This document shows positions 1-31,073 of a DNA stretch of 64,000 bases, one piece after another; position 1 is the stretch's first letter, and each line of letters starts with the position of its first letter. The notes under the pieces were generated by a model. It ran no database searches. It saw only the letters and a list, made by a program, of their open reading frames with translations, and had not been told where the DNA came from. The translations under genes and the position numbers were made by a program. This DNA comes from Antedon mediterranea (Eukaryota; Echinodermata; Crinoidea; Comatulida; Antedonidae), in NCBI RefSeq assembly GCF_964355755.1, contig NC_092670.1:39667795-39731794 (forward strand), read 5' to 3'.

Positions 1-299
1 TCGCTGGGACACAACGTAATTATTGGTGCTTCATTATCTGTACAAAAAATAAATTGCAATCTTAAAAAACAATTTTTTGACTTTGGTGAATCTTTCTGAT
101 ATTTATGACGACACCACAAAAATAAAGCTTCTTATAATGGGGTACCTTTTTTATATAAGTTGATTAAAAAGTACAAAATATCATGAGCAATTTTAATTGA
201 TTGTTTTACTGTCCAAATACAATTCATGATTTCATGTTCAAAATAACACCACAATACTTCTATACATCTAATGTTTTATTACTTGATTAATAAACATAC

Positions 300-551
300 C
301 TTCAACAGTAATGGTAAAAGTACATGTTGTATTAACATTATCATATGGATCAGAGGCTGTGTACTGTACTACTGTTTCACCAGCTGGGAATTCAAACGTG
401 GTTTGGTTGTGAGAGCCAACGATGTCTGGTATAGCTTCCGAGTTGTCCGTAGCTGTTGGTTCCATCCAGGTTGCCAGGCCTGTAGGTTCTCCCTCTGTTG
501 TGTTAACTGACTGATCATCAGGACACATTGTAAACACTGGGGCTTCTTCAT
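300..551 (-). CDS. HYR module 8 (last in window)
   Basis: A 252-bp phase 1-1 exon with [24 protein letters not shown] and [16 protein letters not shown]. It ends in phase 1 at a GTATGT donor at position 299, so the reading frame continues left of the window. Confidence 0.9.
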
Positions 552-3500
552 CTGCCATTAAAAACAACATTTTCAGTTAATGCAGTATGTTTGTTTATTG
601 GCCTACTTACATTGCTGTATTTGAGTTATCGGACCATCAGAATGATTTTTACTTAAATTGTATATCTTTCCAAAACTGTACTACATACCTGTGACATATA
701 TGTTAAATGAACACATTCCTTTATTTATTGATAAGTCAGTTGCATTTATAGTTATCATTGTTGCGCCTATACTAAATTCAGTAGCAGCATTGCTGGTCTG
801 TGATTCACTGATACTAAGATCCATAGTAGAATCAACGTTATCCGTGAACGTTGGTGAAGTCCACGTCACACCAGTGGCAACATCGTCGCCGCTATCTGTA
901 GTTACCATCTGATCATTTGGACAATCATCTGTCATTGGAATCTCATCATCTGTTGAGTTAAAAAATACATTTTAATATTGGTAATGGGACTATCTAATAA
1001 TATTTTGAGAACGATAGCATTTTTGTTAATATATGTAGACAATTTTTCTTTTTTTTAGTTACCCTAACCTAGTTCAATTCTAATAAACTACTACATATAC
1101 AATTGTAATTGGCAGTTCAATGTAACTTTAGGAAAGATTCGGATCTTCTCCAGGGAGAATGCATTAATTGTAATGTTGTTTTTTTGAGGGATTTGATTGA
1201 GGACATCTTTTATGTTAAAAATCATTTATCAGAAGATATTAATAACAAAAAATTTAAACTATATAAACCTGAAATTGAATACCTGTTATAGTAATGACAA
1301 AAACACACGTATAATTCACGTTTCCAGCAGCATCCGATGCATTTATCTGCACGGTAGTGTCACCAAATTCAAAGGTATCGCCGGAGTTGTGATTGCGCAT
1401 ATACATTGGGGTTTCATTTGAATTATCCGTAGCCTCTGCACTCATCCATTCCATAGTTGTTGAGTTTATTCCTTGATCTGTTGTAGATGTGTTGTCCGAC
1501 GGACAAAAGGTAAACACTGGAGTTTGATCATCTAAACAACAATTATAAATGTTTTTGAAATGAATATATGTTTCCTTTTTGCAAAGGTGATAAATACTGA
1601 TGTCATGTGGCAATTACGGTAACGGCACAATCTTTCGTTTTGTGAAACAGAAAATATGAATGTAGCTTTACCTGTAACATTAACAAAGAACTGGCATGTT
1701 GTATTAACGTTTTCCCCCATGTCAGTTGCATTATATTTGACAAGAGTAGATCCAATTGGGAATGTGTCACCACCATCAAAGTTTGATAGAATCGTCGGAG
1801 GGTCACCAGAGTTATCGGTTGCTTCTACAGTTGTCCAGTTCACGACTGCTGATGAAAGATCTGGATCGGTTCTTATAATTATATCCGATGGACATTCCGT
1901 GAACACTGGCGGTTCAGTATCTACAATAAAAATGTATGTAAATATTGGTCTACAGTTTTTATGTATCTCCAGTGCCCTATTATGTGCTGTACTGAATAGT
2001 TCCTATTGAGCTATACTCAATGCTGAGAAGAACTATACTGTAGCAACAACCACACTGTGTTTTTATTATTGCTTCCACAGAGTAATTACTGCTGCAACCA
2101 CAGACAGTGCTTCAGAAATACTAAACTACAGGTATATTATATTGTGAATACTACACCCAAATGGTATTACAGCAAATGATATACTGCTGTGACCAAAGAA
2201 GTCTATGCAGCTATAACAGCAGTATTACAGCAGAAAAAGACAATTTCTGCCAAAAAAAAGTTAATTTCTCAAACAAAATGATTGTCTCACCTTTAATAGT
2301 AACTGAGAAATTGCAGGTAGTGTTAACATTGCCGGCAGGATCAGTAGCATTGAACATAACATCAGTTGTGCCAATTGGAAAGGTTGCTCCAGATTTATGA
2401 GAACCATCTATCATAACAGTCAGCAGAGAATTATCAACAGCAGTTACATTTGGCCAGGTGACTATAGCAGTTGGGAGACCAGGATTGGTTTCATTCGTAA
2501 TGTCACTCGGGCAACTTGTAAACTCTGGAGGCTCCATGTCTGTAACAAAAATAATAATATAGCATTATTTCAAAGTTATTGTTTTCACTGTAAATAGAAG
2601 ATTTTTACAAAGATTCCATAGCATTGTGCAAAGTAGGTGGACATAGGCCTATATATGGCTGTTGAAATTTTTAGTAGATTTAATTTATTATTTGCTTCAA
2701 CAATTTACAAATATTTTCTATTTTACCCATGATTGTAATGTTGAAGGAACAAGTTCCATTAACATTGCCGGCTGCATCTGTTGCATTGTATTCAACTGTA
2801 GTAACACCAATTGGAAATGCAAAACCACTGTCATAGTTTGATAAAATGGTTGGTTGCTCATTTGAGTTGTCTGTAGCTGTCACGCTATCCCATGTTTCAA
2901 CCGATGTTGAAGATCCGGGATCAGTCTCAGATGTAATGTCAACTGTACATGATGTAAATAACGGGGCTTCGTTATCTAATAATAATAATAATAACATACG
3001 GTAAACAATATCTCATAAGGTACAAATATTAATCATGGTAAAAGTATGTTTGATTGGTATATTACCTGTTATATCAACTCTGAATGAGCAGGAATCGTTA
3101 GTGTTGCCGTACATATCTGTAGCATTGTACATGACAAGAGTTGAGCCAATCGGAAAGCTTGTACCATTCTCGTAATTACTGTCTATTGTTGGTGCGACAC
3201 CAGAATTGTCTATAGCTTCGACGGCACCCCATGTGATTACTGCGTCTGCAGAGCCTGGGTCAGTGGTATCTGTGATATCATCCGGACAGGCCGTGAAATC
3301 TGGTTTTTCATCATCTAATTTTCATTGATAAAACAAAAATGATTACATTATTTTAACATTTTGAACCGATGATAACTGGGAATGACATTTTGTTTAGACA
3401 TAATGAGGTAGTAGGCCTATATGAGTGAGATTAACTACTTGTTCAGTTATTTGCTAATGGTAGAAATAAATTACTGTAGTTAATTATTACTGCAGTAAGT

Positions 3501-6500
3501 ATTTTTATAAAAAAAACTTTAAACCTTTGACTGTTACAGAAAATGTACACGTTCCAGTATTTCCACTAGGATCTGTTGCTATGTATGTATTAGTAATAGT
3601 AGTAGTAAGGCCTGACGTCAAAGCAACTTGATCTCCAATGTCATAGTTTGAGACAATCGATATAGCACATTGGTTGTCCTCATCTACCGTTGGTTCAACC
3701 CATGATAGCGTTGCAAAGTTTTCATTGGGATCTGTTGGAACTGTTTGATCTGGTGGACAGTAAGTGAACGTCGGACTGTCCGAATCATCAACTGAAAACG
3801 ACACAAGAAAAAAACCCCAATATTAAAAAAAAGTGGTACATTTTCACAAAATATTTGAAGCTCTGTCTACACTATCAAACTAGTTTGACAAAAAAGTGTG
3901 ATGTGCCCAAATATAGTGGTGATATGCCCAAATATGGTAGTGCTATGACATATGTCCATATATGGGTACATCACTTTTTTTTGTCACATAAAGTTTGTAG
4001 ACAGAGCGTTAGCATAAATGAATTATGTATAAATATGTGGTTAATAATCTATGCATGCAAAAAAGGAGGAAGCTTCACAATAGGAGTTTGACAACATGGC
4101 ACCACATCATACTTACATATTTCACATACAAAAGATAAGATATCAGCACAGCTTTGATCGTTCCAGTTCCACTGGTTTGCATACATTTCAATGCAATCTT
4201 CATCACCCAAGTTATTTGGTTCAGCATTACGAAAATCTGCAAATGTCCATTAATTTTATATAAAATTACGTTATAGTAGACGCTTAAATTAGCAGTGGTT
4301 GATACAATATACTTTAAAATAGTGGTGGGGGGGGGGGGGGGAGGGGAAAGAAGGGAACCCAGGGCCTAAAAATTGATTAGCATTGGTGGATACCAAACTT
4401 TGAAATAGTGGTGGGGAAGGGGAGAAAAAAAATTTAAAAGTGAAGTGTTGACTAAATGTTGGATTTTTACAAATTTAGATTTTGAAGTTATTCCAATTGT
4501 GCTGCAGTCTATTCATAACCTACATTAACCAAGTTGTTCGAATATATTTGTTTACTTTAACACTGTATAATATTGTAAATGTCTTACTTGTATAATTGGT
4601 GCATTCCCCAGTTTCTACCCAAACAAATAGGCCTTCTTCATCTATATCTCTAAAACCAATCCATGCTTTTGCGGAAATAAGTGAACCAACAAAATCATTT
4701 TCCGCTTGACTGCTTATCACAACAAGATCAGCTCCAACATTTTGGCAGGCAGATCTAGCTGTTTGCCAATTAGCGTTATCATCGCTAAAGTATCTGTAAC
4801 AGCTTCCATTGTATGCTGTCCAATCAGGTGGGCAAGCTAAATATAAAAAGAATAGATTAGTATGAAATATGAATTCAATAATAATAATACTGTATTTATT
4901 AGGTCATCAATGAATAATATCCATAAGGGGAAATGGGCTAAAGCCCAAATGAATTCTGCACTCACTTCATACAATTAAATAAACCATGTTATTATACCTC
5001 CATGAAACCCTCATATCAAGGAGATTAAACAATTGTATTACAAATAAAACTATACATAAATAAATTGTTTTGTTAGAGCAGCCTAAAAATTGAAATTGTT
5101 GGTGAACTCTTTATGTATGTAAAGGCCAACTCAGACAGCGTCGTACAACGAGGCCCGACGAAACGTTTTGACTTGTAGGTGTTGTCTGTTGAGTTGTCTT
5201 ATGCGATAGCTTCGGGCATAAGTTTTTAGGTCGTCGCAAGAACTTTAAATATGTCGCTCATCAGGCCTTGATGCTGTCTGAGGTGGCATATCAACAATAA
5301 GTACTATTGCATGAATGACAAACCTCTATATGAAATAATTATAAGTCCTGTGGGTTCGGATATAGATCCTTCAAACACATTTGCCGTGACTGGCGTGGTT
5401 GTGTTGGCCCCTTCAACTGCTTCAACTCTCACTACTTCGTGTTCATCCCAATCCGTATAATAAACGAATCCTTGGTGATAAAATACATCGAACGGCCTTC
5501 CTTGAGCGATTTCATGAACTAGTTGATTCAAATTCCCCCAGTAATCCATTCTTCGTATCATAGACCCAAGCCCAGTAGAAGTGGATATAGCAACATACAA
5601 CCAACCGCCTTTAAAAACAACATTACATGTTATAACACACCCGGATTGTATTTTTGCAATTTGATTGGTCAAAAATACACATCACGTCATTTGGAATTAG
5701 CCTTACCAATGAAAAAATGATATCTGATGGTGATAAATAACAGGCTCTTATGCACGTTCAACTTTCTGTAAACATGTTGTGCGCGCCGTCTATAACTGTC
5801 AAAAGCCCAATGATCTAAAGATTTTATTTAAAGGAGTTCAATGAATTTGAACATATACCTTCGACATCCAATGACAGACCATTAAACCACCCATCTACAT
5901 CCATTGCTATAGTAGTCCTATCTTGGCCCTCATAAGAACTTCGTTCAATTTTACTAGTCTGCCAGTCACTCCAAAATAATGTTCTAAAAAAGCATGTACA
6001 ATATGTGTTTTAATTTTTTTTCTACAGTCAACCTTCCCGTTGCTTGTATTAAAATGTGTATATTTCTATTTTCGTTACCGCTCATCTGTGTAAATTGGCC
6101 TTAATACAAACCTGTTTGAAATAAGTGCCACAATTCCTCTTGGCTTTTGTAGACCGGTATTGATTATAATTTTGCGATCACTTCCATCAATTTGTACAGA
6201 CTCAATTGTATCGTTTATTGAGTCAGTCCAAAAGATGGTTCTAGTTAAATGATCAACCGCGACTGCCTCTGGATCTGAAACAGAACACATTTCATTTTAT
6301 TTTATTTAACTTTACTAATAACTTAAATAAAGTGGAGGAGCCTAAATGAAAGCATAGCTTGCGTGTATATATCATATATGCACTCGCTCTGCTAACTTTT
6401 CTGGCTGTTTTACTTATCGTTTTGATTTAGCTTTTCGCTTTTTTTTTGTATCTCTATTGAGATCCAGTTACTGATACCCACAGCATTGTCATTTTTCAGT

Positions 6501-9500
6501 AATTTGCCTTTGGATTTATCATATATATGCAATACAGTGCAACATCAGAAAATCTTTTTTGATACAACGCAAATACAAAAATATATTTATAAAATAAATT
6601 ATAAACTGTTATCAAAATATTCAATAAGAAAAAATATAGTAGCCAATTAATGGTCTAGATTTTAATGTAGTATTAAGGAAGAAACCACCTCTTTTGAGAT
6701 ATTCAGGTGACATCCACTATGAAGAGGACACGCTCCTGTGAAGTGAACCAGTGAATGTTGCCCCTATTAAGTGAACAATTTGCTGGGTTCAGACAGTGTC
6801 CCTTTAATAGGGGTTTTACTAGACTAAAGAACACATAACACATGTTATTTCTTTTAAACTTTCCTAATACTACATTAAATAAATAAACGACAACGATTTG
6901 ATGCAACTGCACCACCTCTGAAAATAAATTAAAATAACTTACATGTTATATTTTCATTGACAACAATAGTAAAACTGCTTCCGCTGAGCGGCGTCTTTAG
7001 TATCAGCCCGTTCTCAACGTCTGTTATATAAATTTCTTGTAACACTGGATCATAGTCGATTCCAGTAAATGCGTATGTACTGTTATAATAATAAATTTGT
7101 AAATCAGTTTCATTACTATTTAATCTCCCGCCATAAATTGCTCCGGGTACACCATCTAAAACCATGAGTATGTCATTAGTCTCACCATCTGAAACTAGAT
7201 AAAAAAAACCAATTTAGGCTTTGAATTATTCACTGCAGTTCCAGGTTACAATGTTGAGTGATTAAAGTTTCATTGTTGATGTTTCATAAAACTTGAGTCA
7301 GTCTCAGTATCATGATTGTCAACCACTTTCACATCTGCAGATTATATTACATTATAATAAGTTGTAAAAGTTGTGCATGTTAAGAAAATTTGTTAAAATT
7401 CTCTAGATTTCCTGGCCAGAGGCATGATTTTTGATCTGAGATTGATACTGTGCAACTTTCACTGGGATTTAACTGACCAATCACTACATTAGACTGAAAA
7501 GTGCTTCCAAATATTATGACAATACTATGTTTGAAAACATGGAATCAAAATATGTTACAATGTTTAATAATTTATGCAGTGTGAAAATGGTTCAAATAAT
7601 GTAAACCATTGAGGTATACATCTTGCATGTTGTAACTTACTGAGTGACGTAACTTAACTTACTGAGTGATGTAACTTAACTTAGTAATGTAACTTAACTT
7701 ACTGATTGATGTAACTTAAAGCCCCATTCCCTACGTTTTTTAGATCTAATTTAAGATCACAAACTATATTTAATGTAAAAATAATACTATATGGTCCTAT
7801 TGCGATAACTTTTTTCGTCTTTAAACGGTTAAAAATGTGAAAAATAAGTCGATTTTAATAATTATAGCGGCCCGCTATAAATCCCAAAATGCATTGCGCG
7901 CGGATTGATATTTTTGTTTTTCACCTGTAATTCGCCCACTTTTCGATCGATCGTGAGGCCAAAACAAATGGAAGACTCCTAACTTTTCAGCGAAAATATC
8001 GGGTTTTCCCCAATTTTTATCAACGGAGTCTGGCAAAAATAGAAAGACAATTAATGCAGCAACTATACAACGTCAGGCTAGGTATATAGCTAGCGTACGA
8101 TGTTCGTACGTTACCGATGTTTACCAGCTAGGCCTAAAAAACTAAGCCTAGCCAGGCTAGGCCTAAGACCGTCCACGAGAGGTCGATCGCCGCGAGCTAC
8201 TTAGGTAGTGCATTGTTTCTCACTTTTTATCATAATTTACCATAAAACGTACATTTAAGACAAGGAATGACATGGTTTAATGTTTTTAAAGTGATATATA
8301 TGTATTATTTTCCAAAAAACGTCCAAAATTGCAGGGAAGGGGTCTTTAACTTACTGAGTGATGTAACTTAACTTACTGAGTGAAATGACTTAACTTACTG
8401 AGTGATGTAACTTGACTTACTGATTGATGTTAAGTTCCATGGTTGTAATCCTAAACACATTGATTCATCAGAACCGTCTGAACAATCAATATATTGAGAA
8501 TCACACTCAAAACTTCCTGGAAGACACAACATTGAACCGGAAGTACACTGGAACTCATCTGCATTGCATGTGGCTGCAAAATGATAACAAAATCAGTTAA
8601 ATGGAATAATAATGTAGTTGGATATTGGAATTTGATTTATATACTTTTTACCTAAGAAAAATACCACAAATTTACATACACGAGAGTCAAATTGTGTGAC
8701 TTTCCTATCTTATAAATATAAAAAAGTACTATGTAGCTATATATATTTTATAATCAACAAACGCACTTTTAAACCTGGAGCTCACCTTTAACTTTTTTTA
8801 ACCCACCTGGGAGCACCTGGCTATACCTTCTTGCTTGACACAAGGTCAACATCTTGACATGCATGGGTGGGTAGGTAGCTGAAGGAGGTGATCGCCTGTA
8901 GACTCTATAGTACTACTTTCTACACCTTTTTACAATGTTTTTAAAGTATCAAACTGAACTTACTACAATTGACTTCATCAGATGAATCGCTACAGTCACC
9001 TGCGCCGTCACATCTTCTTCTATAATCCGAAATACATTCACCATCCTGGCAGGTGAAACCATTAGTACAGGATTGGCATTCTATTAAAAAAACAAATAAT
9101 ACATGTGTGTTATGTGCATTGCGAATTGTTATAGTAACGTTTCCACCCGCATCCAGCTCTCTTGATCAATTCGAATCCGCTCTCTCCCACTAAAATGCAA
9201 TTTCTTCCAATATTTCAAATAAAAAATAAACAAACAAACATTTCCGACACTGATGTAGGGCTATAATGTTGACTACTACTATACTACTAACTCTAGATTT
9301 AGAAAAGAGAATGACATAGATGATAAGAGCGCCCTCTACATTGATGTATTATAATAGCGCCCTATATAGTTCATAAAACTTTCTTTTTCTGAGTTAAGTT
9401 GTGAGGCCGCGACAACGGTACAAGCGGCTAGCTTGTTATACACAATTTTTAAAACTTCTCTTTTAAAAAATCCTCATTCGGTGTTTGACATTTTATATAA

Positions 9501-12500
9501 AAAAAACCAGACAGAAACGTTGTGAAGCTTGGTCTTCACTACATTTTAGACACTTTTAGTGAGGCCGAAATTATTTTCTGTGCCTTCTTGTGGTTTTTCG
9601 TAAGTAAAATTGTTATGATTTACGCAATTGAATAAATCAATAAGAAGCAAAGAAATCTCAGTGATTCAGCAAATGTACAAACTTTTTATATAAAAGTATT
9701 GACGACTTAGACAGCGAGTGCAATCATCCGATAAGTAAAGAAAAAGTGAATACAAAATTATAAGATCAAAGAGCCGATATTTACGCTTGTGGGCAAAATA
9801 TTTTGATTTGACCTTTTTACTTGGTATTTTAAAAAATGTAAAAATACTTTAGGCTGGTAAATGTAAATAGTGTATGGCATAACAAGAACGTCATGCTAAG
9901 TATAAAAACAACTTTTCCACCAAAGTTTGTTTTTGCATTTTTTTCGCTTCAAAAACATAAACAGTTTATTCGGTAAGTGATACAGAACTTACGTAACGGC
10001 TGATCAAGCTTGCGCAAACTAATGCTTAAATATGGGCGCTACTGTCCCATGAACTTTCTTTTAGTCCATGATTATTACATGACAAGTTATCTGAAAAATC
10101 ACGACACGATGCAACGACCAAACTGTCACCTGATTGGTAAACTTGCTTTGCGCCTGGTATACAGTTATATACATGACCTTATTTGGTCGGATATTGTGTT
10201 TTTTTTTTAATTTGTTAATTTATTTATTTATTATGTATTTATTTGTTTTGCTTTCAACAGGAACTTCTGTCACTGTCACGTTTTTTAGGCCTGCCATAGG
10301 CTAGCTATTAATTATTTCGTTTTGACGTAGTAGTTAGAAAGGCAGTATAATACAATTTCTCGAAATATAATAATAATATAAAAATATATAAAACAAGGTT
10401 TTCTTTCTTTAAAAACTGCTGAGTCGTTCTTCAATTATTTAACTTAATTCCTCGGCTGTAAGTTTGCACAATAAGGATTATTTGTTTTATTTCAGACGTT
10501 TCAGACGTATTGTTACGAATCTTGTATCGGAATAGGCCCTATGTATCACAAAAAAATATATAATCAAACTTTTTTTTTAAATGACAGCTATAAATTCAAT
10601 TGACTAAGTAGTTTCTGGTTAACAACAATTGCATTCATATCATATCATATCATATCATAGTAACATTTATTTCCTTCATAATATACAAAATAAATAATAT
10701 AATACAAAATTCATGACGAGAAGAAAGATAGTTAAAACAATACAATTTTTTTTTTCTCATCTTTAACATGAATAAAACAATATTATGAAGGAGGCACAAT
10801 TTCTAAAAAGCAAAAGCTTGTGTTGAAAGTGCCTGAACAAAACAAAAAGTAACTAAAATCAAATTAGTAAATAATAGTAAATGGTATATAGGAATAAAGT
10901 AATTACCATAACGGAATATGAAAACAATAAAAAACTGATACCTAGAATATAACTAGTTAATTAATTTACTTTTGTATTAGATATTGTTTAGTGTTAAAGA
11001 CGAAGCTATGTTTGTTTGCAGAAGTTGTAATTTTGTTAGGAAGTGAGTTCCATATCTTGGGTCCAGTAAATCTAATATTATGTTGAAAAGAAGTCTTTTT
11101 GTGTTTAGGAATATGAAGGTTATTGAGGATTCTTGTGGAATAGCCGTGAAATTCATAATTGGGAGAAAACATATCGCGTAAATGAGATGGAAGAAGAGCA
11201 TTTTGGCTTTTGTAAATAAATAAACATTGTTGGAAAATATTAATATCTGTTAATTTTAATAATTTGAGAGAACGAAATAAAGGATCTGTACTAGTTCTAG
11301 GTGAAACATTCGAAATTATTCGAATGATTTTCTTTTGTAGTATTTGAAGTTTATTTAAATTAGATGGGAATGTGTTACACCAAACGATATTGCAATATAA
11401 AAGATATTGCAAAACAAGGGAGCAGTAGAGTGTTCGGAGAATATGATGTGGAAGAACAGATGCCAGTCTACAAATTATACCAATATTTTTTGAGATTTTG
11501 TTTTCTGTCTCAATAACATGGGGTTTCCATGTCAGACGACTATCAATGGATACACCCAAAAATTTTGCATGATTGACCATGGGGAGAACAGAACCATTTA
11601 GTTTAATTTGCAATGGACCTAATTTAATCGGCATCGTACTACTTCTAAACAAAACATAGCTGCACTTTTTTAGATTTACAGAAAGGCTGTTTGCCAGAAA
11701 CCATTCGGATACATTAATTAAACTTGTATTTACAGTGTTAAATAATGACTCTAAGTGTCGATTTTTACAGATTAGTGTTGTGTCATCTGCATATAAAAAG
11801 TAAGATAAAGATACTGACGAATTGTAAATACCATTCACATATAAAAGAAACAGAAGAGGACCTAGTAATGAACCTTGTGGTACTCCACAGGTAATAGGCA
11901 AATAGTCAGATTGGGAATCACAAAACTTTGGTACATTGGTAGCGGTTGGATAAATAGCTCTTAAATAAATTGAGAGGAACACCGCGAATACCATAGTGAT
12001 ACAGTTTTGAAAGAAGAATGGGATGGTTAATGGTATCGAATGCTTTCGATAGATCGACAAAAACACCAATTGCAAACTCATCATTTTCAAATGCATCTAT
12101 TATTTCATTGGACAAATCAATTAAGGCCATTGCGGTATCAAAATGTTTGCGAAATCCAAATTGCTTATTGAATAGAATATTATTTTTTTCCATAAAGGCA
12201 TAGGTTCTATTATAGATAATTCTTTCTAATATTTTAGAAAATAGCGAAAGGACTGAGATCGGTCGGTAATTAGATAAAGTGTCCTTTTTTCCTGCTTTAA
12301 AGATGGGAGTAACTCTTGCCAATTTCAATTTATTTGGAAAAACTCCTTTTGTTAAAGACAGATTAAATATGTGACATAGAGGTTTAACCAAAAGGGAAAT
12401 TGATTGTTTAATAACTTTTGGACTGAATTCATCAAGTCCTTGCGCTTTATTAGTTTTAAAACACTTGACAATATCAATAATTTCTGTATCAGACACTGGA

Positions 12501-15500
12501 CACATAAATAAAGAGTTTAAAGTAGGTAAGGGCAAATACGTTTTAAAATCATATTGATCGGTTGGCAATTTTTTTGAAAGAGTTGGTCCAATTTCGACAA
12601 AAAACTTATTGAATTCGTTTGCGATTTGAGACGGGTCTTCAATGGATTCACCATTATTGCCTGTTAGAACAACTTTCGTATTCAAATTCGGAGACCTTTT
12701 AATCAAGGAGTTAATTACGCGCCAAGTACCTTTAATATCATGTTGACATTGAGTAAATCTGTTTTGATAGTATTCGGTTTTAACACGTTTAATAAGTGAA
12801 TTTAAGGTATTACGGAATTTAGTGTATTTTATTTTATTATGATTGGTAGGATTATTTAGGTATTTAGCATATAACTTGTGTTTATATTTAGTAGATTGCA
12901 ACAGACCATTTGACATCCAAGGTTTTAATTTTGTGTTTTTTTTTTACTTTGCGTAGTCATTGGAAAATGTTTATTATATAAAAGTTTTAATTTAGTTTCA
13001 AAAGTATTATAAGCTTGATTAGGTTCTTGCAATAAGTTCACATCGTTCCATGTTATTACGCTAAGCTCTCGTTTAAATTGTTCGATGTTATTTTCATTAA
13101 TTTTCCTAAAAGGTTTATTTGGAGGTCTACTGACTGCTTGAGTATTTTTGTATGTTAAGGTAGATATAGAAAAAACAGGTAGGTGATCGGAAATAGCCTA
13201 AAGTTAACGACGACTGTCGGAATCAAATGAGTAAGATCATTTATAAATTCTATAGAATTCTATAGAGTTCTATAGAAAATGGTATAGAGCTCTGTGGTAT
13301 TCTAGAAGTACAACATTTCTATGAAAACCTATTTCAAATTCTATAGAATTTATTTCATCATCATAATAAACATGTATTTCTAAATAAAAGTGGCGTCACC
13401 AAGAAAGCAAACTCTTCTGTCAGGGACGCCTAACAAAACAGACAAATATATATATATATATATAAATATCACAGAAATGAAAATAACAATAAAAACGAAT
13501 CCTAAAACGTCAAGCGGTACTGTACCTTTCAATTGTAGTATAAATCATATTAATACATATTGGTAAAGGTAATATATTAACAAAAACATGGTCACTAAGT
13601 ATTGTTTGATAATAAATAATTTAGTGTCTAGGCTATAGAATGTTTCTTCTTTTCTATAGAATCTATAATTCTGGTAGAACGAGTCTTCTCGGATAAGGAC
13701 TATAAACCGTAGGTGTCCATGTGTACACATCTGGCTCATGTGCACTTTAAAGAACCTAGTACATCTTTCGAGACCAGGGGGGTTACCCCGGTGTACTAGT
13801 ACACGCACAGCCACTGGTCATAACTGGGCCCTCTTAGAGAACAGTCTTTGATGGAAGAGGTCACCCAGTATAAATAAATAATAACACATTTTGTAGAATT
13901 CTATTTATTATTATTGATAAATTTAGATATGTGATTAATACAATGCGTGACGATTATAACAGGGAAGTTCACCTATATTTTCAAAGTCAGTCTAAAAAGA
14001 TGTTTGTCCCCCAAAAACATGAAAAATGAAGATTAATAAAATTAAAATAAGGTTATTCTGTAGTTTTAATAAAGTTAGGCCTAATCCCTTTCGTAGAAAA
14101 AAAAATGGGAAAAAATTAAATTGAACCAAAACCATTGGTTGGCAGCCAATTTGACAATTTTTTCTGTTTTTTAATACATCTTTAAATGTTTACAAAATCA
14201 CGGGAAAAAATTCGCAAGCAGGTCAAGAATTTTTGACTGCCGCGAAATATATTAATTCTCGAAAAGAAAAACCATTCTGCTGTGTGTTTAAAAAATCCCA
14301 CAATGATCCGAGGATGCAGGACTCACCAAGATGGTAATACTTCTATACCGTTGAAAAAAAGATACGTATTCGCGTGCACGTACCATATGGTCAGCATTTA
14401 ATATTGTATGGTTCCATATTGACATAACCATAAGGAAACTTTTTAACAAAAGTGTTGTTACAGTGTTTACGATATCACAGAGTAATAATATAATAAATGT
14501 AATAACAATTTTAATATAGGACTTATCGATCAGGAGCAAATTCAATGATGATGACGTTGGTAGGTTGCTTAATAAAGTGACATAACTTCAATGAGTTGCA
14601 TTGGGACCGATACAAAGTAGTTTACTCCACGCGAGTTGGAGGATTACGAAATGCTCCCTATTCTGATGACCGCCAGGAACGCATACAATTTATTACATAG
14701 TTTTCAATCAATTAAAGGATTCTTTAAAATGGATTACGATGTAAAAGGGAGATTTGGTTAAAGGTTAAGAATAAGTCACCAGTGCTGATTTTCTATAGCT
14801 ATGTTAATCACAATACTAAAAATAAAAAAACAAGGTACGACTTTAAGTCCGACTATTATGGTCCAAATAGGTATTATAGCACACCCAAAATTCGGTGAAT
14901 AAAAAGTTTAAAACGTTTTGAATCGAAAGTATGTATTTTCAAAAACAATTGTGTTGTGCTTTAGTTTTGTTAGTTTTATGAAATCTAACGTGCCTTACCG
15001 TAATATGATACAAGTGGTATATAGACATAAAAAAATGTAGAATTTTACTTCCGTCGAGAGTCACGTGCTTCCCCGGCTCTCAGTGTATTCATTCTTTACA
15101 CATATCAATAAACATACATGTTTTGCTTGATGATTTCGTCTTTGTATTTTTTAACCGGAATGACAGAAAAAATTTAATCCCGGATGCATAGGATCCGGAA
15201 TTTAGAAAAATGAATATAGTCAAAATACACAATTAACACCCTTTTTCCTTGAATTGAAAACCACTAAATCTCCTCCTTCTAATCTTTGGAAAAAGTGAAA
15301 AGGCCTAAAAGATATCTACATGTGTATCTTCATAAATGAAATCAATTGATATAGGCTACACCTAATTTGAATATACAACAACGTGATTCACTACGTATCA
15401 TTATCAAGTTGGTCTAACAATAGTTGCCACTTAAACTTACTTAAGTTAAAGTTCATTTTTAAAACACAAATCAGTGTAACAATAGGCCCTACATTGTTGT

Positions 15501-15827
15501 TTTTTCTATGCAATGAAATCAAACATACTCCAGCTTATAAAAGAATGTTTGTTGCAAAGCAAAGGGACACTCAAGTGGGTACACAATGCAAAAACAGGAT
15601 TTTCAGATGAGTTAACCTGCGTGAACAGAGGACTCACTGAAAGTATAGGCGATTGTATCTTGCAATAAGACAACCTCAAATGATGGAGGTATAACATCTA
15701 TTTTTATACCTTCATGCTCAAATTATCTTAAACTCGTAAAATATATGAATTATTCAAAACACTTACTAATTAATACAGGTAAAAGCAATCCAAATATTAC
15801 ACACAACGTAAACTTGCTTGGTGCCAT
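300..15827 (-). CDS. Mosaic LDLa / YWTD-propeller / C-type lectin / HYR protein, 3' end outside window
   Basis: Sixteen coding exons can be joined in phase: 15827-15767, 9080-8964, 8573-8421, 7194-6943, 6274-6112, 5983-5859, 5608-5324, 4836-4588, 4236-4117, 3791-3525, 3314-3066, 2975-2727, 2539-2291, 1920-1672, 1531-1283, 949-689 and 551-300 (the first being the signal exon, so 17 in all). They encode about 1183 residues with the open end still in phase 1, so more exons lie left of the window. The order is signal peptide, two LDLa, six YWTD blades, one C-type lectin domain, and eight HYR modules. Every exon boundary is phase 1 except two inside the propeller, the signature of module shuffling. 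The protein should be secreted or, if a membrane segment lies further on, a surface receptor. LDLa and lectin Ca2+-binding residues are intact. The ligand is unknown; a carbohydrate-binding, adhesion or immune-recognition role is inference. Intron 1 is 6.7 kb and carries a LINE. Confidence 0.88.
689..949 (-). CDS. HYR module 7 (divergent)
   Basis: A 261-bp phase 1-1 exon with [26 protein letters not shown] and [15 protein letters not shown]. The conserved GN of the HYR core is replaced by IN, and the module is four residues longer than the standard copies. Confidence 0.85.
1283..1531 (-). CDS. HYR module 6
   Basis: A 249-bp phase 1-1 exon with [28 protein letters not shown] and [16 protein letters not shown]. 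Confidence 0.92.
1672..1920 (-). CDS. HYR module 5
   Basis: A 249-bp phase 1-1 exon with [36 protein letters not shown] and [16 protein letters not shown]. The usual GN before the second cysteine reads ENVN here. Confidence 0.92.
2291..2539 (-). CDS. HYR module 4
   Basis: A 249-bp phase 1-1 exon with [24 protein letters not shown] and [16 protein letters not shown]. Donor GTGAGA, acceptor TTGTTACAG. Confidence 0.92.
2727..2975 (-). CDS. HYR module 3
   Basis: A 249-bp phase 1-1 exon with [33 protein letters not shown] and [16 protein letters not shown]. Close in sequence to modules 2, 4 and 5. Confidence 0.92.
3066..3314 (-). CDS. HYR module 2
   Basis: A 249-bp phase 1-1 exon containing [30 protein letters not shown] and [16 protein letters not shown]. 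Both HYR cysteines are present and the NAT in YNATD is a potential N-glycosylation site. Confidence 0.9.
3525..3791 (-). CDS. HYR module 1 (divergent, next to the lectin)
   Basis: A 267-bp phase 1-1 exon. It has TYCPPDQTV at the start and [17 protein letters not shown] at the end, the HYR hallmark. It is 6 aa longer than the standard copies because of a Thr-rich insertion in the middle, and it has an extra cysteine (DNQCAIS). Confidence 0.9.
3858..4008. mobile_element. Family A palindromic MITE, copy 1
   Basis: Starts AAGCTCTGTCTACACTATCA and ends with an inverted, slightly degraded end (GTTTGTAGACAGAGCG). The interior holds CCCAAATATGG and CCATATATGGG boxes typical of the family. Intronic, next to the lectin exon at 4117. 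Confidence 0.85.
4117..4836 (-). CDS. C-type lectin domain, two exons
   Basis: Exons 4836-4588 and 4236-4117 give one complete CTLD of about 123 aa. It starts [16 protein letters not shown], carries the WIGFRD core motif, and ends with EPNN, EDC and QWNWNDQSC before the last cysteine. EPN plus WND are the Ca2+-site-2 residues of mannose-type C-type lectins, so sugar binding is likely retained (family knowledge; not tested). The intron at 4237-4587 holds a 15-G tract. Confidence 0.92.
5121..5287. mobile_element. Short MITE, GGCCAACTCAGACAGC ends
   Basis: About 165 bp in the intron before the lectin exons. Left end GCCAACTCAGACAGCGTCG, right end inverted GCCACCTCAGACAGCATC. No coding capacity and higher CpG than its surroundings. 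Confidence 0.5.
5324..7194 (-). CDS. Six-bladed YWTD (LDL-receptor class B) propeller, four exons
   Basis: Exons 7194-6943, 6274-6112, 5983-5859 and 5608-5324 total 825 nt (275 aa), enough for six blades of about 43 aa. Recognisable YWTD variants are IYITD, IFWTD, LFWSD and VYYTD, several followed by the typical I-x-R/S-x-x-x-DG turn such as [13 protein letters not shown]. The two internal junctions are phase 2 and phase 1, so unlike its neighbours this domain is not a single exon. No EGF module follows the propeller, which is unusual, because LDLR-family propellers are normally flanked by EGF repeats that pack against them. Confidence 0.85.
7628..8430. repeat. Tandem repeat CTTACTGAGTGATGTAACTTAA, interrupted
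   Basis: About four copies at 7628-7719 and four at 8346-8430 of a 20-22 bp unit, now separated by the TTAA-flanked element. The right array runs up to the LDLa2 donor. Confidence 0.75.
7720..8345. mobile_element. TTAA-flanked inverted-repeat element inside a tandem repeat
   Basis: A 626-bp insert bounded by TTAA on both sides (7716-7719 and 8346-8349). Ends are AGCCCCATTCCCTACG and, inverted, AGACCCCTTCCCTGC. It splits a GTAACTTAACTTACTGAGTGAT tandem repeat that continues on each side, proving insertion. TTAA duplication is the target preference of piggyBac-type transposons; no transposase is present, so it is non-autonomous. Located in a mosaic-gene intron. Confidence 0.7.
8421..8573 (-). 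CDS. LDL-receptor class A module 2
   Basis: A 153-bp phase 1-1 exon encoding CNADEFQC through [10 protein letters not shown] followed by an eleven-residue linker. Six cysteines and the SDGSDE calcium motif are present. The acceptor is TTTTGCAG and the donor GTAAGT. Confidence 0.9.
8964..9080 (-). CDS. LDL-receptor class A module 1
   Basis: A 117-bp phase 1-1 exon with six cysteines and the acidic Ca2+ motif [16 protein letters not shown] near its end. Acceptor is TTTTTTTAATAG, donor GTAAGT. The spacing is that of a complete LDLa domain. Confidence 0.9.
9081..10624. other. Intronic DNA, no gene recognised
   Basis: Part of mosaic-gene intron 1. AT-rich; small open frames (for example 10010-10210 plus) have no recognisable content. 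Nothing else is supported. Confidence 0.6.
10966..12000 (-). pseudogene. LINE ORF2 fragment, C-terminal half of reverse transcriptase
   Basis: Continues the same protein in another frame from [14 protein letters not shown], through YADD and the conserved [15 protein letters not shown], to the natural stop at 10966. Codons above about 11935 in this frame are shadow. Confidence 0.85.
11918..12916 (-). pseudogene. LINE ORF2 fragment, N-terminal half of reverse transcriptase
   Basis: 332 codons from the thumb-proximal linker through the RT fingers and palm ([19 protein letters not shown]). It ends prematurely after [13 protein letters not shown] because of a one-base shift. Confidence 0.85.
13204..15766. 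other. Intronic DNA with simple repeats and SINE
   Basis: Remainder of mosaic-gene intron 1. Holds TTCTATAGAATTC-type palindromic runs (13240-13360), a TA run at 13448-13468, the truncated SINE, and a copy of the CCCCCAAAAACAT end at 13990. No exon recognised. Confidence 0.6.
13666..13890 (+). mobile_element. tRNA-derived SINE, tail type 2, 5'-truncated
   Basis: Starts inside the body (CTGGTAGAACGAGTCTTCTC) without the tRNA head, and runs to GAGGTCACCCAGTATAAATA. Loss of the 5' part is typical of LINE-driven insertion. Mosaic-gene intron 1. Confidence 0.8.
15767..15827 (-). CDS. Signal-peptide exon of the mosaic gene
   Basis: The ATG at 15827 opens [20 protein letters not shown], a short basic start followed by a hydrophobic core, which is a classic secretory signal. 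The exon ends at a GTAAGT donor in phase 1 and fits the LDLa1 exon at 9080. No closer acceptor in phase was recognised between them, although a small missed exon cannot be excluded. Assignment to this gene rests on strand, phase and the need for a secretion signal. Confidence 0.75.
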
Positions 15828-18326: not shown

Positions 18327-21300
18327 CTAATTATTGTTTGTAATAACATCATTGATCCAGGAGATGTAATTGGCGACCTTTGTGTATACACCAGGTTTGC
18401 GTGCATCAGCACAGCCATAGCCCCAACTTACAACGCCTGCAAGGTCATATGCTCCATCAGAATCTAGACAAACAAATGGTCCACCACTGTCTCCCTGTTT
18501 AATAACAACAAACCTCAAAATATTACGGTAGCTGCTTCTAAAAGAAGTGAACTTTTAACCTACTAATTTGTAAATGGTTTTAAATAAACAGTTAAAGATA
18601 TAATAATCCCCTTGAAAAATAATTTGTTTAAATGTTTTTGTGATTATGCAATTTTAATGACACGTAATAGTTATGCACTTTGACCAAAAATTGGAATAAA
18701 AAAAATAATTTTCTGAAAAAACTGTAATTTAAGCAAAGAAAAATAGCCAAATTAAATGGAAGTCAGTGGCATTTATTTTGTCTTTTTACAAATGAAAACA
18801 TTATTTTTTTGTTTGGTTTTGTTTTGTACGGAAGAAAACATCTTTAAAGTAAAAGTAAAAAAAAACCCAGTTAAACAGCGTGCAATAAGAACAATTATTA
18901 ATTAAAACTGATAGATAATATACGTACTTGACAGGAATCCATGCCACCATCTGCAAATCCTGCACAAAACATGTTATCGGTTATATCGCCACCATACCAC
19001 AGCAGCTGATTACACGTAGCAGTGTCTATGATAGGTACACTAACCTGTTGCAGTGTTTTTATTTCACTCGAAGCTGATTGAAAATTCAAGAATTGTTATG
19101 TTATTTAATATTAAATATATAACAATTTATTTGGAAGCTACACTTGTGAAACAGTGGCACACTTCTTGAATGAAGGTGCGTCCAGAGTAAGTAAAATACA
19201 AGGTTAGAGAACAAAAAATGATTTAACAATAGGCCTATTTACAACGAAACTAATTAATTTTTGGTCTATTGTTCCATTATTAAATTGGTTCTAAACATCA
19301 ATCAATTCAATGTAAAACTCAAATGGTAAATACAGGACACATACAGTATAATTGTTTGAATTCAATTGATACACTTATCTTGGAAAAAACACATTGGAAT
19401 AATAAATTAAAGCCCTAAACATGCTGTCAATGGTGAAAAAAGATATTCTTTATTACAAATTAGTGATTCTACTGTAGTTAAAGATGTATTGCCCCCCACC
19501 CCCACCCCCACCCCTGAAAAATACCTTTTATGCCATTTTAATGCCACCTAAATAGTTATCCACTTTGACCAAAAATTGGATTAAAAAAAATGTATTTACC
19601 TTAAAAACTGTAATTTAATTGTCTGTCACCAATGGTTTTTTGGTTGAATTTAACCATTTATTTTGTCATTTGATAAGTGAAACATTAATTTTTTCGGTTT
19701 CTACAGCTCACTATATCGGTCGGTCGGTAAACACTAACTTGAGAACGCGACTGCAGCCATGGCCTTGTTTAGTTTTAATAAAAGTTACAGTAATCACTTT
19801 CTAAACTAAATAAACAAGGCCATATACATGGCTGCAGTTGCGTGCTCAAGTTTGTGTTTACTGACCTACCGACCGACCGACCAACCGACAGACATAGTGA
19901 GCTGTAGAGTCGCGTTGCATGCGACTAAAATAATCTATTCAAAGTCTTATTTTATCAATTTTTGTTTTTCATGTTTTTGGGGGACAATACATATTTAAAT
20001 CTTTAATTATCAAGCTTTAAATAAAGTTTATATACCGTAATACCAGATAAATAAGTTTAACGTACTTTCAGTATCACCCCATCCTGTAACAACGCATTCA
20101 GCTTTATAAGATTGCAAATCTTTGTCCGGTAGACATACAGGGGAGATATATTTGGTGAACTGTACCGTACTGTCAAGTTTCAACAAAGCAATATCATTAT
20201 CCAGTGTTCTGTCGTTGTAGTTCTCGTGAAGGAATACGTTGGAAACTCCATACGATTTTTGGTTAGAATCTATGGCGTCTCTCTCGTGAGCTCCTAATAC
20301 TACTTCATAATTCTCTACCTTTGGCTTTTTCGTCCTTAAAAGGTGAAAAAAATATAGGAAGTGTTTATATTCCTTCATTCTTTATGGTAATGAATACGTC
20401 AATAATTGATTTTAATTCTAATAGAAGGCTCACCGTATTGCAAAACTAATTGAACATTTTGTACTGGACTTTAAAATGTCAAGAATCATTACAGAATAGT
20501 TTGTATAGCTTATGCATTCATGTAAGCAAGTGCGTCTATGGTTTTAGAATAAGAGTTTTGAGTTGTGAAAATGATCTTGTTATGTGTACTACGAACTGTT
20601 TACGATCTTCAAATCCCTTCACTAAATAGGAGAAAATCCTATTTTAGGTAGATTTCCTTTTTGTATTGTTTGTTGTGTATGAAATATTTATTCTGAAATA
20701 AAGTTATCAATCAGTTATGGTCTATCCGTATTCTTCGAAATCGAGTCAAATGGCCGAGCGGTTAAGGCAGTTAAGCGGTTTACCGTACCTAAAGAACCAG
20801 CCAACATCGGCAAGGGTTCGAGGCCGACTCGATCCTTATAGTTCTGATGGAGGAACAAGTCTTCTCGAATAAGGACTATAACCCGTAGGTCCAGTGTACA
20901 CACCTGTGTGCACTTTAAAGAACCCAGTTCATTATTCGAGAAGAGTAGGGGATACCCCGGTGAACTGGTTCACAAAATAGCCCCTGTATCAGGGGGATTA
21001 TCACCTATCTGATAGGACAGTGATACATTTACTATTGGTAATCCTTGGCCACATTGCCTAAAGACATAAAATAAAATAACAAAATAATAAATAAACAGGA
21101 AACATACGGCTAGCTATTTGGGTCTATATTGTTGCCTACGTACCCTATGCAATGACCAGCAGTTACAACCCATTTATCGTTGATGAGCGAGCCACCACAG
21201 AACTGATAGCTGCCAGAAGTAAGGGCATACTTCTGTCGAAAGTTTACTTGCCAAGGCCAGCTTCCTGGTCTCGCTTCCACACCACCGACAATCTTGAGGT

Positions 21301-27679: not shown

Positions 27680-30600
27680 TTACATAAATGCTAAAGAAGT
27701 AAAATCTGTTTCTAATAACGATGAAAAAAAATCATCCTGATTCGTCTCTAATAATGCAGTTTCTGGAAAGGTCATTGGATGACCTTCTGGAAAGGTCATT
27801 GGATGACCTTCTGGAAAGATCATTGGATGACCTTCTGATGTGTTCAGAAGAGAGACATTTTTCTTGAGACAGGCATCACCTTGACTGTCGATACTGCACT
27901 CTGAGGGCGTGTCCGTTTCTAGCCGAGAGAGAGTTTCTGTAGTACCACTTAAGTCGGAAGAACTACTTATTCCTGATTCAACACTTGGGTTAGGAGATGG
28001 AACAATTGAGTCTATATTAGATTTCTTTGAGAATCCATTATATAACTTTACATTGTCTTCTACATTGTGACCGTAAGACGGAAACATTGTTTTATGTCGC
28101 ACGTTGAACTGTCGTGCTCTCCTACGCAAGGGTTGCGTTCCAGACACGCGTCCTACAGCTTCCGTTCGGTTCAAATTCCTGTTTTTCGTACACGCTTGTG
28201 ATAAAAGACGATCTGGAATTGTTGCCATTACAACTGAAACTGCATCGTTTTTCTTATCAGTTAGTTTCATTTTTTTTCTATTACTACTACTCGGTTTGTT
28301 GGATTTTGATTTTGCTTTAGTGTTACGAATGTTTGAGGTATTAAGTGCTATATTATCCTTCACACAAGTATTAAGGTATTTATCAAGAAGCACATTATCC
28401 GTAATTGAATTCCTATTTGTAAGCGATATGTCCTTGTTCTTTTGTTTACTCTCTTGAAATCCTAAGAACTTTGTTTTATTCATTGAGTGCGTACTTGGCG
28501 TATGCAATACGATTGGCGGTGCTGGCTTAGGCAGGTCTGTTAGCCTGCAACTTTGATTACTAGGGGCAGCCAGTGGTGTTAGCAGAGGCAAGTCTTCCGA
28601 TCCTTTCATTTCAGTCTTTGAACCTTGGGATGTGGTTAGCATGGAAACTGTTGTCGGCTTAGATATATTTTGAAAATTTGAGTTTGGAAAGTCTAACAAA
28701 ATATGTTGGGTGGGACATGCGCCCATATTTTCCAGACATGAAGATGATTGCTTTACCGCTCCCTGATTGGAGGATGGGTGATTTACCGCTCCCTGATTGG
28801 AGGATGGGTGATTTACCGCTCCCTGATTGGATGATGGCTGCCTTACCGCTCCCTGATTGGATGATGGCTGCCTTACAGTTTCATTAGCGAGTTTGATTGA
28901 TTTAGATAAAACAGTAGAATGCATTAAACTGTTGACATAATCCGCTTGCTTGAAGCAGTTGATACACTGTTTATGTTGTCGTTCTAATACTATCATATGG
29001 ATTTGGTTAGCTGGGATGTTTGGCACAGCTCTGCTCCACTTGCATTCACTTAACTTTAAGTCATCACACTCCATCCATACATCCTCTAGAAAATACAAAC
29101 ATAAAAAGTTATTTCATGATGGCAAATTTGTAATGGCATTCCGCACTTTAAATAAATAATTTCACATTCTCTAAAGCTCTGTCTACACTATCAAACTAGT
29201 TTGACAAAAAAGTGTAATGTGCCCAAATATGGTAGTGATATGTCCAAATATGGCAGTGATATTGGCGGAGCTTAAATTAAAATTACAGTCACCATCATAA
29301 AATTAAGGATGAATAACTGCGGGTGGCATATAACATTTCTATTTTTGATCATTGAATTATGAAGGTAGCTTGTTCTGTTAACCTTAGCTTGAGGATGTTT
29401 GACCTATGACATTTCACATGCACAGGGTACTCCCTTTTGATGAAATTTGATGAAAAAATACAGTGACAATCAATGCAATTACAAATAAAAGGTAGAATAC
29501 AAGTTGAAAAGTACAAACAATCAACTGCACAAATTAAAAGACGTTGAAACTCGGAATAAATTTCTTACCTTGTACCTCTTTGATCCACACCACAAAATGT
29601 TTAGGAGAGGGCTTATACTGCACAACTGCTGTGAGTTTATACACACATCCATCAATGTACATTTGTAACTGATCCAGATTATTATGAGGAAGACCATCAA
29701 CAAATTGCATAATTAAACACTGTGATAACCTGTAAGAGGAAATAAATATTAAGTATAACATAATGAAATGAAAAAGAATGTAACTTAGATATCATAAAGC
29801 TCTGTCTACACTATAAAACTTTATGTGACAACAAAATGTGATGCGAGTTTTAGACTTACTTGTGATATATTAGCCGACATTGCTGTTTGGTCGCTTTACA
29901 TTTAGGACAAGTCATCATCATTACTGGACGGTTAACATCAAATCCGCTTGGTAGATTTTGAAAACTTATACAGGATTTCTGAAAACTAAAGGAAAGGAAA
30001 GGATCAGATAAAATAATATAAAATAAAGATTTTTTTTACTTTTATTTAAAATTTGGTTTATTTTCATCAAAAATTCAGATCAATAAAATTACAATAAATT
30101 ATATTTACCTGGTTATTTGAATGTGTCCACAGAGGGCGCAATTGAATTCCAGGTGATAACGTGCTAAAAAATGCTCAGCGAACGATTTACTTTTATCGAG
30201 TAACGCAAGCAGGGCAAACAATGGGCCATCCTCGCTTCCAACATCACAATTCAATCTAGGTTGCAACTCTTCAAATAATTTGTTCCTTATATCATTTAAA
30301 ATGTCCACTGCTTCTTTCAACTTCACAAGCTTCGGATCTAACAAGCAAGTGGGTTTTGAATCGTTGCAAAGTCCATCCAAAAAGTTATCAAGATTATTTA
30401 TATCGTCCATATTTGTAAGGTTTCTATTGTCATCTATTAACTTTCTGCAATAAACACTCATTGCTTTGTTATACTTCACAACAAGTTCTTTTATGATACA
30501 GTTAGTATTCACTTTGTTGATGCATTCACGCAGGCTTTTTAAGTTGACAAGAAGACTCATAGTTACATCAAGCCAACATAGTGAATCTCTATTGCTCCAT

Positions 30601-31073
30601 TGTAACATTGGTTGCTCTAGATTGGGTTGACAATAATCAAATTTGATTGGTGGTTGTAATGTTGACTTCTCTTCAAGCGGTGTACTTGTTGAAAGACGGG
30701 CATTTTGATGATATGAACACTGAAACAGAGCAAAGTAGCTGAATTAAAACAATGAAACTTTCTAAAAAATAAAAGCAATATTCAATCTTATTAAGAATTA
30801 AAACAATGAAACTTTCTAAAAAATAAAAGCACTATTCAATCCTATTAAGAAAATATAAAAAAAGTGTGTTTAATGTATCTAATCTATCTATATTCTTATC
30901 CATTTTAGTCTTTTGGTTTAAAATCGAAATAAAAATCAAAATTGTTAGGGATGCTGTACCTGTTTTCGAGAACAACAACAAACAACTTCATGAAGATTTA
31001 AATAATAAGATGTCAATGGTGTTGTTTCTCCGTCTTCTTTACATCTCGGACAGGTTCCTAGATCAGCTTCCAT
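27680..31073 (-). CDS. USPL1: USPL1 ortholog, SUMO isopeptidase
   Basis: Exons 31073-30960, 30719-30109, 29985-29860, 29729-29569 and 29085-27680 join in phase to about 805 aa. An N-terminal zinc-type motif (CPRCKEDGE ... VVCCCSRKQC) precedes the peptidase domain. Nucleophile Cys is in SLCWLDVTMSLL, His in SPKHFVVWI, Asp in MECDDLK, all aligned with human USPL1, together with LQPRLNCDVGSEDGPLFAL, FNCALCGH and QFVDGLPHNNL. Human USPL1 acts on SUMO rather than ubiquitin and associates with Cajal bodies (established). The last exon is a long disordered basic/Ser-rich tail with two runs of in-frame peptide repeats, ending DDFFSSLLETDFTSLAFM, which recalls the acidic-hydrophobic human C-terminus. 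The start is in the second exon; the upstream exon is non-coding or holds a uORF. The N-terminus is the least certain part. Confidence 0.92.
27764..27837 (-). repeat. 24-bp coding minisatellite near the USPL1 C-terminus
   Basis: Three in-frame copies of the octapeptide GHPMTFPE (the first reads GHPMIFPE), 24 bp each, just before the conserved acidic C-terminal motif. Confidence 0.9.
28752..28876 (-). repeat. 30-bp coding minisatellite in USPL1
   Basis: Four in-frame copies of a decapeptide, xxPSSNQGAV (RQ, RQ, NH, NH variants), then a decayed KQSSS copy. The unit is 30 bp, so copy changes keep the frame. The copies pair into two subtypes, suggesting duplication of neighbouring units. Confidence 0.9.
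29174..29272. mobile_element. Family A MITE, copy 4, internally deleted
   Basis: Complete left arm; the right arm is reduced to GGAGCTTAA. In the last USPL1 intron. Confidence 0.75.
29797..29845. mobile_element. Family A MITE, copy 5, fragment
   Basis: Left end only (AAGCTCTGTCTACACTATAA to AATGTGATG), ending 15 bp from the USPL1 exon at 29860. Confidence 0.7.

Follow-up and report, generated by a model that had tools for sequence, protein, structure and literature searches.

What kind of protein unites LDLa modules, a YWTD propeller, a C-type lectin domain (CTLD) and a long row of HYR domains is the question raised by a 64,000-nt stretch of the Antedon mediterranea genome (assembly GCF_964355755.1, NC_092670.1:39,667,795-39,731,794), referred to below as the window. 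Positions outside it are given on its contig, C1, with window base 1 at C1:39667795. An earlier note, written from the window, had proposed a receptor-like recognition or adhesion protein and had pointed to the DNA further left for a C-terminal membrane segment. Such a segment lies there, as the seven-helix domain of an adhesion G-protein-coupled receptor (GPCR) and not as a single pass, which supports the proposal. As predicted from its sequence, the gene (gene A) is very probably one 43-kb unit encoding a giant adhesion GPCR with (i) a head of two LDLa modules, a YWTD propeller and a CTLD, (ii) a stalk of 45 HYR domains followed by EGF and Ig-, SEA- and HRM-like modules, and (iii) a GAIN-GPS region and a class B2 seven-transmembrane (7TM) domain. 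The adhesion-GPCR chassis was invisible to the earlier note because the window holds only the outer quarter of the protein, 1,183 of 5,211 aa.

Gene model and domain order

Exons of gene A were joined from splice signals in genomic DNA, with 40 kb left of the window added. The model lies on the minus strand and comprises 68 exons and 15,636 nt, with a terminal stop codon; no inner stop codon occurs across the joined exons, and all junction phases fit. Phases are 1-1 in all HYR, EGF and Ig exons, and the SEA-to-7TM exons are mixed in phase and compatible. Seventeen exons, from the signal peptide to the eighth HYR domain, lie in the window and are free of stops; those after exon 1 are all phase 1-1 except the second (1-2) and third (2-1) propeller exons, which compensate each other. 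The module order and phase consistency first read from the window hold throughout: all modules are on the minus strand, phases agree at every window junction, and the start codon (15827) and the end of HYR 8 (300) coincide exactly with the earlier placement. Exon 1 alone, in the 10.8 kb scanned upstream of the first LDLa exon, combines a hydrophobic ATG frame with a good phase-1 donor. Intron 1 (6.7 kb) contains two overlapping long frames of long interspersed nuclear element (LINE) reverse transcriptase type at window 10966-12943 (-), a label given by eye.

In the 1,183-aa window product, Pfam reports HYR (343 bits, eight stretches), Ldl_recept_b (73 bits, three stretches), Lectin_C (71 bits) and Ldl_recept_a (57 bits, two stretches), all above their cut-offs. 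It lists no EGF in aa 1-1183, and by exon order the lectin follows the propeller directly, as had been noted. The propeller is 275 aa long and aligns in part with individual propellers from LRP2, LRP6 and nidogen; the earlier description as six-bladed is supported only in so far as this length is that of one propeller. In Ca2+-dependent C-type lectins the sugar site follows the rule of EPN or QPD plus WND. The lectin of gene A carries this Ca2+ site 2 motif pair (EPNN..EDC..WND) and is predicted from its site motifs to be of the Ca2+-dependent type.

A HYR model made locally from the window's eight HYR exons identifies 45 HYR exons in an uninterrupted minus-strand row from C1:39671580 down to 39647762, the widest spacing between neighbours being 1,398 bases. 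The count of eight or more given earlier is thus right for the window and too low for the protein, which continues into the 7TM receptor. Pfam, run on 1,892 residues of this 3,082-residue stalk left of the window part (aa 1184-4265), reports 23 HYR stretches. HYR 26-42 (C1:39650682-39658096) are 17 alternating, near-identical copies of two HYR types, and this block holds all five of the 45 HYR exons that have GC splice donors (GCAAGT).

In the last 946 aa, 7tm_2 (145.2 bits, cut-off 20.6), GPS (50.9 bits, cut-off 22.5) and EGF (30.0 bits) all exceed their Pfam cut-offs. Ig_2 (23.1 bits), SEA (19.8 bits), the GAIN-A domain of GPR128 (21.0 bits, cut-off 22) and GPR128_N (16.4 bits) score below theirs, and the names Ig-like, SEA-like and GAIN-A are therefore tentative. 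When compared with solved structures by phmmer, the region from GAIN through 7TM best matches ADGRG6 (2e-70), followed by ADGRG2 (1.6e-63), whose alignment begins on the GPS side of GAIN and likewise runs through 7TM. An H-L/I-T/S triad followed by a tethered agonist is the usual cleavage and agonist form of adhesion GPCRs. The GPS of gene A reads CDHL/TNFAVLM, the slash marking the cleavage position. The features that define an adhesion GPCR in sequence, namely a class B2 7TM domain, a GPS within a GAIN domain and an H-L-T triad with tethered agonist, are all found in the predicted protein.

A tandem copy and its divergence from gene A

A tandem paralogue, gene B, is situated at C1:39566761-39618625 (-), some 73 kb to the left of gene A. 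It has 72 exons, 5,507 aa and 16.5 kb of coding sequence without an inner stop, and its module order is that of gene A with the CTLD-HYR-HYR block doubled, so that two lectin domains are present. GC donors occur in seven of its 47 HYR exons, and its GPS is identical to that of gene A. Gene B confirms the distant signal-peptide exon, which had been the least secure call: its counterpart at C1:39618565-39618625, 13 kb upstream of B's first LDLa exon, is 96.7% identical and keeps the ATG and the same phase-1 donor.

The two genes are mostly 95-98% identical in DNA, falling to 81-92% in aligned pieces of the head part and upstream introns; because these parts are less alike, a single sequence assembled twice does not account for A and B. 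The LDLa and YWTD exons are 97.9% identical (1,072 of 1,095 sites) versus 88.1% for the introns from the first LDLa to the CTLD, and the EGF-to-7TM exons are 99.5% identical versus 98.1% for their introns. In B's first copy, the second lectin exon departs from that of A near the sugar site and retains EPN and WND, which are kept in all three lectins of the pair.

Substitutions between A and B were counted without the near-identical copies HYR 26-42 and with the lectin of A paired with the second lectin of B. Overall, 78.5 nonsynonymous and 52.5 synonymous changes give a ratio of nonsynonymous to synonymous rates (dN/dS) of 0.42 (Fisher p 6e-6), and the coding sequence is clearly under purifying selection. 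The head (signal peptide, LDLa, YWTD, CTLD) has 25 nonsynonymous and 13 synonymous changes (own test, p 0.07), versus two and five in GAIN-GPS, 7TM and tail. Nonsynonymous change is higher in the head than in the signalling end (p 3e-7). Because synonymous change is also higher there (p 0.015) and the introns diverge more (88% identity at the head versus 98% at the signalling end), part of this contrast reflects a different history of the two regions, for which gene conversion in the 3′ part is one example. The propeller alone (13 nonsynonymous, three synonymous) shows no departure from neutrality (p 1.0). Between A and B's first copy, the sugar-site half of the lectin has 15 nonsynonymous and three synonymous changes, none of which touches EPN or WND.

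Related receptors in the genome

The genome searched comprises 354 Mb in 18 contigs, 11 large and seven small (each ≤567 kb); on C5, C6 and C7 matches lie beyond 29 Mb. The 11 large contigs suggest a haploid number of 11, which fits a crinoid. According to a review, the diploid set of most echinoderms has 36-46 chromosomes (PMC3308324). A search for mitochondrial COX1 gave no match. About 150 best-scored matches were used per family, which makes the HYR, YWTD, CTLD and 7TM counts lower bounds; in the head-module search 88 of 740 candidates were scored, and a match that is not listed is not thereby absent.

At least 14 GAIN-7TM loci, A and B included, have an exon for transmembrane helices 2-4 that is ≥63% identical, the next best being 58%. 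By sequence, these 14 closely related loci are an expanded family in this genome. Members lie at C1:6.53-7.30 Mb and on contigs C2, C3, C4 and C8 as well. Among the matches listed, HYR domains occur upstream on the same strand in 13 of the 14 loci (the exception is C2:32.84 Mb), and upstream lectin matches occur in A and B only. A same-strand YWTD cluster no more than 70 kb upstream is found at six of the 14: A, B and four loci at C1:6.53-7.30 Mb. Placed at random 2,000 times, the 54 YWTD clusters reached a maximum of three loci versus the six observed, in a test in which the lengths of C5, C6 and C7 are approximate and the tandem copies among the six are not independent. The family member read most fully, locus D (C1:7.27-7.30 Mb), presents in order on one strand YWTD, HYR, a frame judged EGF-like by eye, HYR, EGF, Ig, SEA-like, GAIN, GPS (CDHLTNFAILM) and 7TM. 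A further 7tm_2 match lies in a 770-aa open frame at C1:39764636-39765271 (-), about 33 kb beyond the right edge of the window.

Locus C (C1:39334001-39384000, plus strand), at a distance of some 0.2-0.3 Mb from the GPCR genes, contains tandem units in which LDLa-YWTD-HYR-EGF or CTLD-HYR-EGF modules lead into a single membrane segment and a short tail; no 7TM match was obtained there at E 0.01. The tails carry tyrosine motifs such as TLYMTV, TYATI...MYINV and TYTTL. Among the matches listed, locus C holds the nearest non-tandem relatives of gene A by the first lectin exon (65-70% identity; 40-43% for the second) and by the first YWTD exon (65-68%; 46-53% for the other three propeller exons). 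The EGF, membrane and tail exons join in phase in three of the four units, one of them without the best-scoring EGF donor and one without the best-scoring membrane-exon donor; the tail exon of the third unit was not found. Four matches to the tail motif ELHEY lie on one strand at C1:39.33-39.38 Mb. As a genome-wide marker ELHEY was rejected, the backward control giving 215 matches versus 108 for the pattern.

The matching head modules of these single-pass units are the basis for a wider and tentative proposal, which is rather unlikely. Within one chromosome region, one toolkit of LDLa-YWTD, EPN/WND lectin and HYR modules could be common to a 7TM chassis and to a single-pass chassis resembling receptors with immunoreceptor tyrosine-based inhibitory or activation motifs (ITIM/ITAM-like), with heads swapped and duplicated and changing faster than the signalling ends. 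The giant GPCR might then be one arm of a paired-receptor-like system of glycan recognition in immunity, symbiont recognition or allorecognition.

Weighing a single giant receptor against its alternatives

The locus might instead comprise two transcription units or main isoforms, a secreted LDLa-YWTD-CTLD-HYR protein on the right and a shorter HYR-EGF-Ig-GAIN-7TM receptor on the left. Such a division would suit the 6.7 kb of intron 1 with its LINE-type frames, the same head modules at locus C without a 7TM match, and the presence of possible starts inside the gene. A scan from the HYR array to the gene end for hydrophobic ATG frames with a phase-1 donor, with the plus strand as control, gave six distinct places on the minus strand versus one on the plus strand. 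One of the six falls inside a 7TM exon and one past the stop codon. Of the four compared with gene B, those at 39661313, 39657664 and 39649524 are not kept, through lost ATGs, an 8-base deletion or an alignment that ends before the donor; the one at 39653989 is kept; its ATG falls in the last bases of an HYR exon within the repeated block, a position that may alone explain its retention. The 68 exons need no stop or terminal exon anywhere, the largest gap between HYR exons is only 1,398 bases, gene B keeps the distant signal-peptide exon, and the YWTD-HYR-7TM order is found again at other loci. With these observations set against it, a split gene is considered distinctly improbable.

The remaining alternatives have very little probability. 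An endocytic receptor of the LDL-receptor family with an added lectin would explain the two LDLa modules and the propeller matching LRP2, LRP6 and nidogen, and is contradicted by the 7TM-GAIN end in place of a single pass unless the gene is split; this family was rejected on that end and on the missing EGF beside the propeller, and the cytoplasmic tail of gene A contains no NPxY motif. A hyalin-like secreted matrix protein, no more credible than the LDL-receptor assignment, would agree with the 45 HYR domains; a membrane-free HYR array was not what the model gave, and hyalin was rejected because the protein runs on into a 7TM receptor. The long stretches of 95-98% identity between A and B and the near-identical HYR 26-42 could also point to a decayed or mis-assembled tandem copy, which is likewise highly improbable: decay is opposed by 15.6 kb (A) and 16.5 kb (B) of coding sequence without an inner stop and by the overall dN/dS, mis-assembly by the head and upstream introns that are only 81-92% alike.

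Several points weigh against the single giant receptor itself. Besides the excess of inner starts on the minus strand and the one that gene B keeps, (i) five HYR exons require GC donors, (ii) LDLa-YWTD followed by CTLD is known, among the matches listed, from A and B only, which are tandem copies and not independent, (iii) the Ig and SEA labels lie under Pfam cut-offs and the HRM label was given by eye, all three being tentative, and (iv) the single mRNA is a prediction from genomic DNA, with the presumed stalk length and mechanism taken from knowledge of the family.

Proposed mechanism and implications

As a single receptor, the product of gene A would follow the adhesion-GPCR family and, to judge by its anatomy, act as a long mechanical receptor. 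The GAIN domain would cleave itself between HL and T, and the two pieces would stay together as a non-covalent pair. An HYR domain has an Ig-like fold about 4 nm long, and 45 of them could place the binding site 150-200 nm from the membrane. There the head may bind a protein or glycan-bearing ligand carried by a neighbouring cell, the matrix or a microbe. Pull or displacement would then free the tethered agonist TNFAVLM, activate the 7TM domain and lead to G-protein signalling. The general scheme of cleavage and activation in adhesion GPCRs is also stated in PMC12716839.

If this reading is true, an LDL-receptor propeller, a lectin of the sugar-binding type and a hyalin-type stalk can sit on a self-cleaving adhesion GPCR. 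The series within this genome, with or without propeller, with one or two lectins and on a 7TM or a single-pass chassis, could reveal how an adhesion GPCR gains a ligand. A database entry that covers only the part of the gene in the window might be labelled LDL-receptor-like or hyalin-like, and the GPCR would then go unseen.

Features of the locus

Table 1. Predicted features of gene A, in window coordinates or, where prefixed C1, in contig coordinates
Feature	Position	Strand	Basis or remark
Exon 1: ATG, signal peptide, phase-1 donor	15767..15827	-	kept in paralogue B
LDLa 1	8964..9080	-	splice signals, Pfam
LDLa 2	8421..8573	-	splice signals, Pfam
YWTD propeller exon 1	6943..7194	-	splice signals, structure-sequence match
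YWTD propeller exon 2	6112..6274	-	splice signals, Pfam, structure-sequence match
YWTD propeller exon 3	5859..5983	-	splice signals, structure-sequence match
YWTD propeller exon 4	5324..5608	-	splice signals, structure-sequence match
CTLD exon a	4588..4836	-	splice signals, Pfam
CTLD exon b, EPN and WND motifs	4117..4236	-	splice signals, Pfam
HYR 1	3525..3791	-	Pfam, local HYR model
HYR 2	3066..3314	-	Pfam, local HYR model
HYR 3	2727..2975	-	Pfam, local HYR model
HYR 4	2291..2539	-	Pfam, local HYR model
HYR 5	1672..1920	-	Pfam, local HYR model
HYR 6	1283..1531	-	Pfam, local HYR model
HYR 7	689..949	-	Pfam, local HYR model
HYR 8	300..551	-	Pfam, local HYR model
HYR 9, first 37 bases, cut by left window edge	1..37	-	whole exon C1:39667580-39667831
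HYR 10-45	C1:39647761-39667266	-	local HYR model, Pfam on part
EGF	C1:39647418-39647531	-	Pfam above cut-off
Ig-like	C1:39646981-39647244	-	Ig_2 below Pfam cut-off
SEA-like, two exons	C1:39645890-39646505	-	SEA below Pfam cut-off
HRM-like, two exons	C1:39645172-39645646	-	label by eye
GAIN and GPS, four exons	C1:39643117-39644842	-	Pfam GPS, alignment to ADGRG6
7TM, tail and stop, four exons	C1:39640348-39642826	-	Pfam 7tm_2

Elsewhere in the window, an exon-like frame at 20028-20381 (-) belongs to the trypsin protease family (Pfam Trypsin, 73 bits), and frames at 27680-30743 (-) resemble the SUMO isopeptidase USPL1, with Peptidase_C98 at 87 bits in 30105-30743 and below cut-off in 27680-29113. 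Repetitive frames open in several phases, like tandem satellite-like repeats, occupy 43782-44543, 53254-53767 and 60100-60677. On the 3′ side of gene A, long frames at C1:39628039-39630720 (-) look by eye like a retroelement polyprotein.

Comparison with known systems

For amphioxus, adhesion GPCRs that carry C-type lectin and LDLa among other domains have already been published (PMC2246102). They show LDLa and lectin modules in the heads of invertebrate adhesion GPCRs; the main text of that paper contains neither "HYR" nor "hyalin", and the legend passage that concerns them includes no YWTD propeller. HYR domains in choanoflagellate adhesion GPCRs may already have been listed in PMC12716839, where "hyr domain" and "hyalin repeat" are each counted once, with no place in the main text. 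In the literature searched, which covered few subscription journals, no paper was found that joins YWTD with adhesion GPCRs or HYR with adhesion GPCRs and echinoderms, nor any description of the full domain combination of gene A.

Within the genome, the locus C receptors have head modules like those of gene A and differ by one membrane pass and a short tyrosine-motif tail. LDLR, LRP2 and LRP6 have LDLa and YWTD in common with gene A, which has a 7TM domain and lacks both the propeller EGF and the single-pass NPxY tail. Hyalin is secreted and has long HYR arrays; gene A resembles it and other HYR proteins in the array and differs as a 7TM receptor.

Among solved structures, the best matches are ADGRG6/GPR126 and ADGRG2, with which gene A has GAIN, GPS, tethered agonist and 7TM in common; ADGRG7/GPR128 gives the weak GAIN-A match at 21.0 bits. 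ADGRG heads consist of CUB, pentraxin and similar domains, and we know of no ADGRG-type receptor with LDLa, YWTD, CTLD or HYR arrays. ADGRV1 (VLGR1) is an adhesion GPCR of 5,000-6,000 aa with a very long repeat stalk of Calx-beta. Membership of its family was rejected, as Calx-beta is listed nowhere in the Pfam results for aa 1-1183, for aa 4266-5211 and for the 1,892 residues scanned between them, the rest of the stalk being covered by the local HYR model, and the ADGRV1 7TM match is weak (4.4e-16 versus 2e-70 for ADGRG6). If expressed as modelled, the 5,211-aa receptor would be among the largest GPCRs, in the same size range as ADGRV1, and it would share the overall plan of that receptor, with HYR domains in place of Calx-beta in the long stalk.

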